Source of the DNA: a virus
Strand: one strand, 5' to 3'
Length of the DNA stretch: 42,944 nucleotides
IMG/VR virus record: IMGVR_UViG_3300031785_000013
Location: 1 to 42,944 of that record
Both the position numbers and the translations under genes were made by a program. Below, piece after piece: positions 2,786 through 30,638 of the stretch. Positions within the stretch are counted from its first letter, which is position 1. Every line of letters starts with the position of its first letter. The notes below the pieces were generated by a model that made no database searches, had not been told where the DNA came from, and saw only the letters and a program-made list of their open reading frames with translations.

Positions 2786-3987
2786 CACTCACCCTCCTTC
2801 CCGGCGCGGAGACGGGCGGCTTCGGCGCGAAGAAATCCTGCTGCTCGGACCAATGTTTCGGGGTTGCCGGGCATCCGCTCAATTTCAAGCGCGGCCCATT
2901 CAAGGATTCCGGCTGGGCATGCCGCTATCTCCCGCTCGTCCGGGGCGGGGGCGGACAGCATTGGCAGCCACCCAAGGGGCTCGCCCTCACCGGCCGTGAA
3001 ACAATCCTGCTGCCAGTCCCAGCCGGCAATGTGCCATTCGTCGTCGCCGGAATCGTCGTAGGTGTTCGCCCCGATGGTCCAGGCAGGCCCCGAGTCGAAC
3101 CCGTCATTGACTCCGTGGTTGGTAAACTGGACCAGCAGCAGCACCATGGTGCCGTCGCGTGGCGCGGTGGACATGGGGCGCGGGGTTCCCGGCAACCCAT
3201 CAGGATCGCTTACAGGTTGCTGGGCTGCGGGCATGTCACAAGGTCCGGTGCCAGGGCGCTTGCAGGGCTGGCTACGACAGCATTCCGGCACCGCCACCTG
3301 GGGCGCCCGTTCCTTCAGCAGCCCCAGCAAGTGCTCTTTCTCACGATGCAGGGCGCGGTATGCCGGGCTGGACTTGATGGCCGTCTCGGTCAGGCCCGCC
3401 ACCTGGGGCGCGGGGTGGCCCAGTGTGGCCAGCGCCCGACCGACGGCGTTGTACAGCACAATCAGGCTCTCCGGCTTTTCAGTCATCACTGAGAAGATGC
3501 GCCCGGCCAACTCCGTGCCGCCCATGCCAGACAGTTCCGGACGGTATGTGCCGACGTCGTGGGCGGCATTGTCACGGTAAAACGCCACGCCTGCCGCGCT
3601 GGCAGTGCCCAAGTCGCAGATCAGCACGTCGCCCGCGCCAATTTCCAAGTCCACCGCCTCCCCCTCGGCATGGGAGCGGATACCCTCGATAGCTCGCTGG
3701 GCTGCAACCCACTTCTGCCCGGTCAGTGCCGAACTGTCCGGCCCCGCCGTTTCATACAGGCCATCGAGGAAACTGATCAGATCCTGCTCGGTTTTAAACT
3801 CCCGTCGTTCGGCATGGGAGAGGGCCTCCAACTGGCTGGCAACGGCGAGCATTTCATCGTGGGCAGATTTCGCCTCTTCCTCGCCGTCCCAATTGCCGCT
3901 CAGGGTGTGGCCCTGCTGGATTCCGAGCGCCTCTTCCCGAAGCATTTTTACCGCTCGCTTCAGCACTTCTCTCTGCTGCTCAGCCAT
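2785..3987 (-). CDS. Large early protein with DUF551-like segment, unknown
   Basis: At 400 residues this is the largest unidentified early gene. Residues about 1-65 are helical and charged. The middle region (about 110-230) contains GAGDVLICDLGTASAAGVAF and a long helix ending before a Cys-rich linker (ECCRSQPCKRP). The C-terminal third carries MSTAPRDGTMVLLLVQF, then a Trp-rich WHIAGWDWQQD and LGWLPM, the pattern of phage DUF551-type domains (APRDG...W...LP.). It looks like a modular fusion of separate early phage proteins. No catalytic motif is evident. Confidence 0.6.
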   Translation of the reverse strand: MAEQQREVLKRAVKMLREEALGIQQGHTLSGNWDGEEEAKSAHDEMLAVASQLEALSHAERREFKTEQDLISFLDGLYETAGPDSSALTGQKWVAAQRAIEGIRSHAEGEAVDLEIGAGDVLICDLGTASAAGVAFYRDNAAHDVGTYRPELSGMGGTELAGRIFSVMTEKPESLIVLYNAVGRALATLGHPAPQVAGLTETAIKSSPAYRALHREKEHLLGLLKERAPQVAVPECCRSQPCKRPGTGPCDMPAAQQPVSDPDGLPGTPRPMSTAPRDGTMVLLLVQFTNHGVNDGFDSGPAWTIGANTYDDSGDDEWHIAGWDWQQDCFTAGEGEPLGWLPMLSAPAPDEREIAACPAGILEWAALEIERMPGNPETLVRAAGFLRAEAARLRAGKEGE

Positions 3988-28626: not shown

Positions 28627-29096
28627 GAAACCTGGATATTCGCAATGCGCTGGTCCTGAGCTGGCTGGATGGTGATTTCGGCCTGACCACGGCGTTCCCG
28701 AACAAGGATTTCACCCCGGGCACAGACCCGTGGGCCGCTCTGTTTGTGGTGCCGAGCCAGCCCGGCGTGGCCACCTGCGGCGATGAAGGCCAGGACCGCC
28801 ACGACGGGTTCCTGCAGATCGACCTGAATCACCCGCTCAACGACGGAGACATCCCGGCCATCACCCTGGCCGACCAGATCGCCCGGCGGTACAAGGCGGG
28901 CACGCGCTTCGACGCCCCGGCCCTGTCCGAAACCCTGATCGCCGATTTCCAGGCCCAGGAGTTCCTGGTCTGGGATCCGCTCAAGGTGCTGATCCGCTCC
29001 TGCGGCTACCAGCAGCCGCGGCGGGTCGAGAACTGGTCCCGAACCACGATGACGATTTTCTACTCAGCATGGGTAAGCAGAGGCTATACAGAATGA
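28623..29096 (+). CDS. Tail terminator / completion protein
   Basis: A 157-residue protein in the usual position of the tail terminator (gpU/DUF4128-like), between gp10-like and tail-tube genes. It begins MRNLDIRNALVLSWLDGDFG and ends SRTTMTIFYSAWVSRGYTE, with a beta-strand series (AALFVVPSQPGVATCGDEGQ, LQIDLNHPLNDGDIPAITLA, EFLVWDPLKVLIRSCGYQQP). It would cap the tail tube and set its end. Stop overlaps the start of the next small gene. Confidence 0.72.
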   Translation: MRNLDIRNALVLSWLDGDFGLTTAFPNKDFTPGTDPWAALFVVPSQPGVATCGDEGQDRHDGFLQIDLNHPLNDGDIPAITLADQIARRYKAGTRFDAPALSETLIADFQAQEFLVWDPLKVLIRSCGYQQPRRVENWSRTTMTIFYSAWVSRGYTE

Positions 29097-29368
29097 ATCC
29101 TATCTACCCCGATCGTCCCCACGACCCGGATTTGGAGATCGACCCTGGCAGAGAGATGTCCAGTCCAATTACCACCTATGCCTTTGACCAAGCGGCCGAA
29201 AACCTTAGAGCAAAAGTGCAGAGGGCGGTTGATGAGTTTCACCAGGCTACAGGTGGATTGTGCGCTCCGTCTCTGGATGTGACCAGCACCCCGATCACAA
29301 CCATGAGCCAATCCGTTCATCGCTATATCAGCAAGGTGGATGTTGAGCTTCAACTGAGAACCGTTTAA
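29093..29368 (+). CDS. Small moron-like protein, unknown
   Basis: A 91-residue protein starting at ATG 29093, overlapping the previous stop (ATGA). It has a helical middle (TYAFDQAAENLRAKVQRAVD, EFHQATGGLCAPS) and a beta-like end (VHRYISKVDVELQLRTV). Its base composition looks less GC-rich than its neighbours, and it separates the head-tail genes from a long non-coding stretch. A late-inserted accessory gene is likely. Function unknown. Confidence 0.55.
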   Translation: MNPIYPDRPHDPDLEIDPGREMSSPITTYAFDQAAENLRAKVQRAVDEFHQATGGLCAPSLDVTSTPITTMSQSVHRYISKVDVELQLRTV

Positions 29369-29699
29369 AGCCGCTGCGCCCTACCGTCGTGAGACGTGGG
29401 GGCGCGGTGCATTTCTTTGGTCGAGCCGGTGAGACGCGCACCGGGGGAAGCCTTGCGGACTGGGGTGAGAAAGAGACCAGCGCCATCCAGCTAGCTACTG
29501 GGACCAAAAATCCCCGACACCTGGGGCGAAAAGCGCCTGATCAGCGCGAAGTAGCGAGTGGTGTGACTGCCCGGGTGAGAGAATCCGGGAACCTTTTAGA
29601 AGGGCTGCCATCCGGCGGCCCTTTTTTGTTTCTGGCCGTCGTGAGACGTCCCAACCGCCCCGTCGTGAGACGCGGCTTTCCCAATGATGGAGGTTCGTT
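29369..29699 (+). other. Non-coding, hairpin-rich region with GTGAGA repeats before tail tube gene
   Basis: No gene fits these 331 bases. GTGAGA occurs six times (29389, 29429, 29465, 29575, 29641, 29665). CCGTCGTGAGACG occurs three times (29384-29396, 29636-29648, 29660-29672), each a CGTC-GTGA-GACG hairpin with a GNRA tetraloop; a fourth, shortened copy is at 29426-29436. The first hairpin is extended by GCGCCC/GGGCGC (29376-29381, 29400-29405). Further stems place GTGAGA in the loop: GCG-CTGG/CCAG-CGC (29455-29483) and CCCGG/CCGGG (29570-29589). A terminator ends at 29627. This suggests a structured RNA or an operator array. Confidence 0.6.
29602..29627 (+). terminator. Intra-operon terminator before tail tube gene
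   Basis: GGGCTGCC-ATCC-GGCGGCCC (8 bp, one G-U pair) followed by TTTTTT. It stands between the hairpin-rich region and the tail tube gene and would stop transcription unless it is antiterminated. Confidence 0.88.
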
Positions 29700-30638
29700 A
29701 TGGGCTGCCCTGCAAACGGCTCACGCCACTCTATGGCCCTGGTGGCCGAAACCGAAGCCGGCACCACTCCGGCAACCCCCGCGTTCACCCCGATTCGCCA
29801 GACCGGCACCACGCTGGCCCTGACGAAGGAGGCTCTGCAAAGCAACGAGCTGCGCGCCGACCGTCAGATCGCCGACATGCGCCACGGCAACAAGCAGGTG
29901 GGCGGCGACATCTCCACCGAACTGAGCTACGGCGGTGCGTTCGGCCCCATGCTGGAAGCGGTGCTGTGCGGCACCTGGGAAGCGGACACGCCGTCCGCCG
30001 GCACCGACACGCTGAAGGCGGGCGTGGTTCGCCGGCCCTTCACCATCGAGCGCCACTTTGCGGACATCGGCCAGTACCTGCGGTATCTGGGGTGTGAGTT
30101 CAACACCTGGAGCCTGACGGTCTCCACCAACGCCATCATTACCAGTTCGTTCGGGCTGGTGGGCCGCTCCATGGATGCGCCGGCTCAAACCGCGATTGCT
30201 GGCGCCACCTACGACCCTGCGTCCACCAGCAGCCCGTTCGATTCGTTCTCCGGCCAAATCAACGAAGGCGGGTCATCCATTTCGACCGTCACCGAGCTGT
30301 CCCTGACCCTGGAGAACGGCCTGTCACCGCTGTTCGTGGTGGGCTCTGACAGCGCGGCGTGCATGAGCATCGCCCGCTCCAACCTGACCGGCTCCATCAC
30401 GGCGTTTTTCGACAGCGAGACGCTGTACGAGAAGTTCCTTAACGAAACCGAATCCAGCCTGGAGTTCACCCTGAGCGACGGCACGAACGCCTACACCTTC
30501 AGCCTGCCGCGCGTGAAGTACAACTCCGGCCAGCCGGACGTGAGCGGCGAAGGCGAGGTGACCGTCTCCATGGACTTCCAGGCCCTCTTTGACGCCACCG
30601 AGGAAAGCCAGATCGTGATCCTGCGGGGTGCTGCGTAA
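29700..30638 (+). CDS. Major tail tube protein
   Basis: A 312-residue protein in the tail-tube position before the G/GT chaperone genes. It matches the phage tail tube protein layout: MALVAETEAGTTPATPAFTP, TLALTKEALQSNELRADRQI, HGNKQVGGDISTELSYGGAF, and a later C-terminal domain (TELSLTLENGLSPLFVVGSD, FDSETLYEKFLNETESSLEF). It would polymerise as hexamer rings to make the tube. GGAGG lies 6-8 bases before ATG 29700. The upstream non-coding block may regulate its high expression. Confidence 0.88.
   Translation: MGCPANGSRHSMALVAETEAGTTPATPAFTPIRQTGTTLALTKEALQSNELRADRQIADMRHGNKQVGGDISTELSYGGAFGPMLEAVLCGTWEADTPSAGTDTLKAGVVRRPFTIERHFADIGQYLRYLGCEFNTWSLTVSTNAIITSSFGLVGRSMDAPAQTAIAGATYDPASTSSPFDSFSGQINEGGSSISTVTELSLTLENGLSPLFVVGSDSAACMSIARSNLTGSITAFFDSETLYEKFLNETESSLEFTLSDGTNAYTFSLPRVKYNSGQPDVSGEGEVTVSMDFQALFDATEESQIVILRGAA

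Follow-up and report, generated by a model that had tools for sequence, protein, structure and literature searches.

Comparison among phage genomes shows a small hairpin with a GUGA loop to be a widespread, putative 5'-leader RNA element of phage structural genes, and such an element very probably acts on the gene that follows it. In the window, by which we mean the whole 42,944-nucleotide stretch analysed (the phage fragment held as IMG/VR record IMGVR_UViG_3300031785_000013), the hairpins occupy a 331-base non-coding block before the tail-tube gene. This block would be the 5' leader of the tail-tube message, carrying an RNA element that recurs in other phages.

Three GTGA hairpins precede the tail-tube gene

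The initial annotation had counted six GTGAGA motifs in the 331 bases. We located all six, at 29389, 29429, 29465, 29575, 29641 and 29665, and they make up 6 of the 11 plus-strand occurrences in the window, while about 0.1 would be expected in the block from the window's own density. GTGAGA is not enriched over the whole window on both strands (14 found versus 18.3 expected), so the signal lies in the clustering within the block. The 13-mer CCGTCGTGAGACG, described as repeated exactly three times and folding as CGTC-GTGA-GACG, was indeed found in three exact copies, at 29384, 29636 and 29660, and nowhere else in the window even when one mismatch was allowed. Each copy holds the CGTC-GTGA-GACG 12-mer, which forms a 4-bp stem with a GTGA loop, and the window has no other plus-strand C-GTGA-G hairpin with a stem of at least 4 bp.

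These three copies sit between the tail-terminator gene and the tail-tube gene. Upstream of the leader, the window encodes a scaffold, the major head protein, connectors and the tail terminator, and downstream of it the tail tube, a chaperone and the tape measure; the gene that the leader would serve (29700-30638, plus strand) encodes a major/minor tail protein matching phrog_290 with an E-value of 4e-89. A 99-aa plus-strand ORF with no PHROG match (29069-29368) lies between the tail terminator and the leader, and its presence varies among relatives. This orphan ORF overlaps the end of the tail-terminator gene, and the phage group shows a different small ORF or none at this place, which resembles a moron site. 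The phage record also carries a tRNA gene at its left end (58-131), possibly an attachment site.

All features of the block lie on the plus strand. Hairpin 1 (29370-29410) bears the unit CGTCGTGAGACG at 29385-29396 on top of a longer stem, GCGCCC/GGGCGC. It is followed by an optional block of about 180 nt (29414-29596) that holds three further GTGAGA motifs; seven fetched relatives carry this block, and some relatives that keep the hairpins are without it. Then comes an intrinsic terminator (29600-29627) with a 10-bp stem, AAGGGCTGCC/GGCGGCCCTT, an ATCC loop and a T run, and after it the tandem pair, hairpin 2 (29637-29648) and hairpin 3 (29661-29672), both CGTC-GTGA-GACG. Both the terminator and the two copies said to lie between it and the ribosome site (29637-29672) are thus real. 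Hairpin 3 ends 27 nt upstream of the tail-tube start codon, and the pair directly precedes the tail-tube Shine-Dalgarno, read from the sequence as GGAGG at 29689-29693.

A TTTCCC box (29677-29682) lies between the last hairpin and the Shine-Dalgarno and could pair with GGAGG, and such pairing could make the tail-tube leader a switch. The window's family has TTTCCC ahead of GGAGG (29677-29693 in the window) and several other families have TCCC, and the box could sequester the ribosome site; TCCC occurs within 24 nt after the unit in 24 of 107 unit contexts and CCCT in 21, which are weak statistics.

The claim that two further hairpins carry GTGAGA in their loops stood only in part, as the motif at 29429 lies half within its stem (CCGGTG-AGACGCG-CACCGG) and the fourth motif, at 29575, is not conserved, being GGGAGA in the relatives L021 and L024. 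Since motifs 2 to 4 (29429, 29465 and 29575) lie in the optional block and are without the CGYC/GRCG stem, the conserved element is the three hairpins and not the six motifs, which had been taken as one element.

The hairpins come and go at the tail-tube locus

Homologues of the tail-tube gene show three states of the locus. In one, there is a terminator and no hairpin (L004, L007, L010, L013, L015, L016, L018, L019, L022 and others, with proteins 84-95% identical). Another has hairpin 1, the terminator and the doublet (L005, L008, L011, L014, L033, L034 and L103), and the third has all of these plus the block of about 180 nt (the window, L012, L021, L024 and others, as well as L090, L092, L093, L097, L100, L102 and L109). 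Hairpins are absent from L004, L007 and L010, whose tail-tube protein is 95% identical. Because such close relatives, with a near-identical tail-tube protein, lack the hairpins, the element is, to judge from these loci, modular and dispensable here. Homologues without the repeats had been named in advance as speaking against an RNA element; these three phages are such homologues, whereas the covariation whose lack was to count with them is present, as described below.

Where the hairpins are kept, the three 12-mers are identical in 10 of 10 aligned carriers, while the terminator stem and the spacers vary. The outer stem of hairpin 1 keeps pairing through G-U changes in the aligned relatives, and the terminator stem varies in sequence among relatives yet remains a terminator.

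Matches to the optional block are limited to this phage group. Lineages with tail-tube proteins of only about 85% identity share a block of about 96% identity, which may reflect recent exchange or constraint, and compensatory changes are seen in its last hairpin (GCCCGG...CCGGGA versus TCCCGG...CCGGGAA). As a whole, the block has no better fold than shuffled sequence (z +0.51), and on this value and its restriction to one phage group we do not favour it as an independent structured RNA. Nothing supports a small RNA ending at 29627, which had also been proposed and to which the same z value applies. The idea of an insertion element or cassette boundary, raised by the differing small ORFs and by AAAGCCGC...GCGGCTTT at the ends, was dropped because the doublet stands alone in unrelated phages.

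The GTGA doublet recurs in unrelated phages

A strict scan, for pairs of exact 12-mers separated by 5-35 nt, matched at least 27 viral contigs, some of them from phages unrelated to the window phage. A relaxed scan, in which the second stem pair could be any Y x R pair and no 5' half was specified for the first hairpin, matched at least 95 stretches; after coding chance matches and near duplicates were dropped, these came to at least about 50 non-redundant phage loci (48 or 51 clusters under slightly different rules), all of these counts being lower bounds with patterns so strict. The unit is mostly present as a doublet, with a doublet spacing of 5-36 nt before start codons. Coding false positives in Arg/Glu/Ala-rich frames were taken out (L129, L133, L141, L162 and L175), and L126 was rejected as an inovirus carrier because an HK97-like capsid start follows. 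The element is absent from the named phages closely related to carriers (Limnohabitans DC33, Caulobacter BL94, phiV10 and BcepC6B), and we found no experimentally studied carrier.

Loop controls with identical stems and spacing gave 10 matches for GAAA and 76 for GCAA, the latter mostly Arg/Lys coding, against at least 95 for GTGA, and a mixed GTGA and GMAA control gave 15. When both stems were formed and a ribosome site and start codon lay within 60 nt, there were at least 34 matches for GTGA and one each for GAAA and GCAA. Flipping the second pair to R-Y left 10 matches, none in a leader. Read from these counts, the GTGA loop rule is strong but not absolute, the exceptions being GCAA in L215 and L266, a terminator-like GAAA pair in L200 and GAGA in L143 and L154. 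Variant loops in similar leaders (L118, 5985-6090; L143, 4907; L154, 6209; L215) comprise a GTGAT pentaloop, GAGA, GCAA and a T-A closed GTGA (CGCT/AGCG).

The stems covary around a constant loop

The 5' half of the first hairpin, which the relaxed search left unspecified, is the exact complement in 55 of 60 matches. At the second stem pair of the second hairpin, searched as Y x R, we counted 28 TA, 30 CG, 2 TG and no CA, and both TG cases are coding matches (L141 and L175). Among unsearched neighbours near the clusters, perfect 4-bp tetraloop stems have a GTGA loop in 11 cases and each other loop in at most 2; the stems of these GTGA neighbours are TGCC/GGCA, ATCC/GGAT, GGCC/GGCC and CGCT/AGCG. 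A set of 22 distinct units shows two-sided changes at all four pairs with 100% pairing, its covariation score is reached by 0 of 500 shuffles and slid registers fail the test; the set was partly picked by pattern or pairing (seven rows are unsearched neighbours selected for pairing), so the unbiased covariation evidence consists of the unspecified-half result and the unsearched-neighbour hairpins. The check for covariation that the initial annotation had proposed thus comes out in favour of an RNA, with stems that change compensatorily while the GTGA loop is constant.

The consensus unit is MM-CGYC-GUGA-GRCG-YY, with a 4-bp stem and no bulge; A or C stands at -2 in 89% of cases, and C or T at +1 and +2 in 75-79%. 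Comparison shows the hairpin to act, as far as sequences can tell, as a sense-strand RNA with a fixed GUGA loop and a Y-R second pair.

The doublet lies at ribosome sites of virion genes

On the sense side, 37 of the 48 clusters have a ribosome site with a start codon no more than 80 nt away; on the other side, 2 of the 48 do. Distances from hairpin to start peak at 10-17 and 20-29 nt, and 30-60 nt classes were also seen. When 30 downstream proteins were compared with PHROGs, 12 were major head proteins, 6 major tail proteins, 2 scaffolds, 1 a sheath, 4 small terminases, 1 a large terminase and 4 unknown. The 12 head proteins span several unrelated families (phrog_10/617, 283, 212, 334 and 1357), and Pfam adds a GP7 capsid and a lambda-like tail tube. 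Single copies of the unit precede further genes in carrier phages; in L178, for instance, one stands before the tube gene that follows the sheath gene, and in L156 one stands before a second gene.

The relaxed doublet search over 754 proteobacterial genomes matched the two seed genomes and 0 of the 752 others. In the GTDB species set, the exact doublet occurs in 13 stretches, and the likely true cases are a Mesorhizobium prophage (L116, before a capsid gene) and an Oceanospirillaceae contig (L118, before a small terminase gene). By comparison, the element is shown to be nearly absent from bacterial genomes and, it appears, phage-restricted. Stretches L111, L112, L119, L121 and L123, together with L113-L115, L117 and L120 from Verrucomicrobia, were set aside as other tandem or dispersed repeats and not leaders. 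The latter five come from one Verrucomicrobia MAG in which many GCCGTCGTGAGACGG repeats are scattered; GTGGA or GCGGACC comes after them, and they form a different repeat family.

ssRNA phages carry the doublet

Contig L125 encodes exactly the coat protein of the ssRNA phage Esthiorhiza.4_8 (BK013831, Leviviricetes), and the doublet lies between its maturation and coat genes. A relative of this phage, L084, has two T-A versions of the unit. In L130, the doublet precedes the replicase gene (Pfam RNA_replicase_B, E-value 4.6e-110). The doublet is absent from three ssRNA phages with related coats (L301-L303). Because positive-strand RNA genomes carry the doublet, a DNA-level function is untenable as the general one. 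The initial proposal of a structured RNA is therefore upheld by the compensatory stem changes, the constant GTGA loop, the ribosome-site position before virion genes and the occurrence in ssRNA phages, and its alternative, a DNA operator, is disfavoured by the covarying stem and by that same occurrence.

In L130 (2320-2380), the start of the replicase gene contains CGTCTCACGACG, a perfect complement of the upstream unit CGTCGTGAGACG, and the resulting 12-bp alternative helix over the replicase start could compete with the hairpin. L084 has hairpins with C-GTGA-G loops near both genome ends (47-60 and 3502-3523).

A possible reader of the GUGA loops

Taken as a whole, a host-read GUGA leader element of virion genes is our best explanation, one that we consider slightly more probable than not being the case. 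Two or more GUGA hairpins placed 10-30 nt before the start codons of virion genes would present loops that a host-supplied factor reads, and the outcome would be stronger initiation or a longer mRNA life for the highest-copy proteins. The parts of this explanation differ in strength. That the GUGA loop is specifically recognised is probable, and a reader of the loop is suggested because equally stable loops go unused. The reader would be supplied by the host since ssRNA phages whose annotation lists three genes (maturation, coat and replicase) leave hardly any space to encode such a factor and have no gene in common with DNA phages; that such a host-supplied reader raises expression we put forward tentatively, with slightly more doubt than belief.

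A host factor or the ribosome is the most likely reader, which by our inference would raise translation or mRNA stability. One candidate is a dimeric host RNA-binding protein, and the pairing of the hairpins points to a dimeric reader or to added avidity, as Weinberg et al. (2010, PMC2864571) argued for pan RNAs in tandem. The second candidate is the 30S subunit itself, since a hairpin abutting the Shine-Dalgarno would be situated on the side where the mRNA leaves the subunit and could contact it directly; the 30-60 nt distance classes fit such contact less well than the 11-17 nt class. In the window phage, the leader follows an intrinsic terminator and would thus act on transcripts that read through it. 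Against the explanation as a whole stands the finding that relatives of the window phage and of other carriers do without the hairpins, so the element is not essential.

The ribosome-site position before highly expressed genes, the stems of only 4 bp and the other tetraloops of a few leaders would also be expected if the hairpins gave generic protection or insulation to the mRNA, with any short stable hairpin keeping the Shine-Dalgarno open and slowing decay while the loop goes unread. We regard this as unlikely, since two loops of similar stability on a C-G closing pair by standard nearest-neighbour tables, GAAA and GCAA, occur in one leader each versus at least 34 for GTGA, the second pair must be Y-R, and the unit has preferred flanks, A/C ahead of it and C/T behind it. 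Operator-like hairpins beside the ribosome sites of coat genes are classic in ssRNA phages, and with the doublet preceding ssRNA coat and replicase genes, and tandem copies suiting a dimer, a phage-encoded protein, for example the virion protein being made, might bind the pair and repress its own translation as the MS2 coat does. This is very improbable, as the unrelated capsid, tail-tube, sheath, scaffold, terminase and ssRNA coat proteins share no fold able to bind the hairpin.

Marginally less probable still is a signal like boxB or put that causes antitermination, allowing RNA polymerase to read past the terminator. Lambdoid N proteins use GNRA-like hairpins, the block has a terminator inside it, and hairpin 1 and the optional block precede that terminator; the conserved doublet, however, lies downstream of it, many carriers have no terminator there, and ssRNA phages are not transcribed by host RNA polymerase. 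The least probable reading is that of palindromes working at the DNA level, as a mobile hairpin, a recombination site or an operator: presence and absence among relatives with differing small ORFs looks modular and palindromic repeats are often mobile, but the strict sense orientation (37 versus 2 clusters), the asymmetric constant GTGA loop, the spacing to start codons and the occurrence in RNA genomes all argue against it.

That a loop-specific pair is used both by ssRNA phages and by DNA phages unrelated to one another hints at a host target common to them. It is conceivable, though we rather doubt it, that a host-read RNA signal is shared across viral realms, the GUGA pair having been gained separately by tailed dsDNA phages and by positive-strand RNA phages, or passed between them, to capture one conserved host factor or 30S contact for making virion proteins at a high level. 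Such a signal would be a regulatory RNA common to viruses without shared genes. Phages need hundreds of capsid and tail-tube copies, and the contribution of leaders is poorly known outside model phages. The doublet offers a short mark by which virion genes of metagenomic phages can be annotated, and it may also serve as a portable element for expression. The constancy of GUGA against equally stable loops makes loop reading directly testable.

Comparison with known RNA elements

The initial annotation had recognised no named RNA family, and we likewise found no Rfam match to the leader: at the gathering threshold, Rfam 15 gave only the tRNA at 58-131 in the window and no family in 10 other carriers, and a permissive search of the leader gave sub-threshold matches to the terminator only. 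Mu-gpT-DE (RF03012) is like the doublet a small RNA hairpin tied to phage structural genes and placed beside a start codon. Its covariance model has no match at the doublets up to an E-value of 5 and none in carriers over the cut-off, the only weak match lying in L155, away from the doublet; its own stem takes in the ribosome site and has CCUG/CAGG closing a large loop, a structure unlike that of the doublets. A CRISPR-repeat mimic is not suggested by the position at ribosome sites.

The doublet resembles MS2-type coat operators as a hairpin near the ribosome site of a phage structural or replicase gene. Those operators have a bulged A, an ANYA loop and one cognate coat protein, whereas the doublet has no bulge, a GUGA loop and many unrelated downstream proteins; binding of the MS2 coat type is unlikely because those proteins are unrelated. 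Lambda boxB, with its short GNRA-like hairpin, and the HK022 put RNA, with two stem-loops, resemble the unit as hairpins of phage transcripts, but they act on RNA polymerase elongation upstream of terminators, while the doublet (29637-29672) lies downstream of the terminator (29600-29627) and at ribosome sites. The core GUCGUGAGAC and its GUGA loop are shared with the tip of 23S rRNA helix 93, which we take to be GUC-GUGA-GAC. At the second pair, half of the phage units, unlike helix 93, have C-G and not U-A, so mimicry of the full rRNA sequence is not required.

In its arrangement, the doublet is like the pan motif, a simple hairpin, mostly in tandem, in 5' leaders, whose tandem form was taken to hint at a dimeric protein-binding motif (Weinberg et al. 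2010, PMC2864571). The pan stem has two bulged A residues and precedes bacterial pantothenate genes, whereas the doublet is made of bulge-free 4-bp GUGA hairpins before phage virion genes. In the part of the literature that we covered, we found no earlier description of the GUGA doublet, and a prior description is possible. Tandem-hairpin leaders as such are known; what would be new is the spread of such a leader RNA over both DNA and RNA phages.
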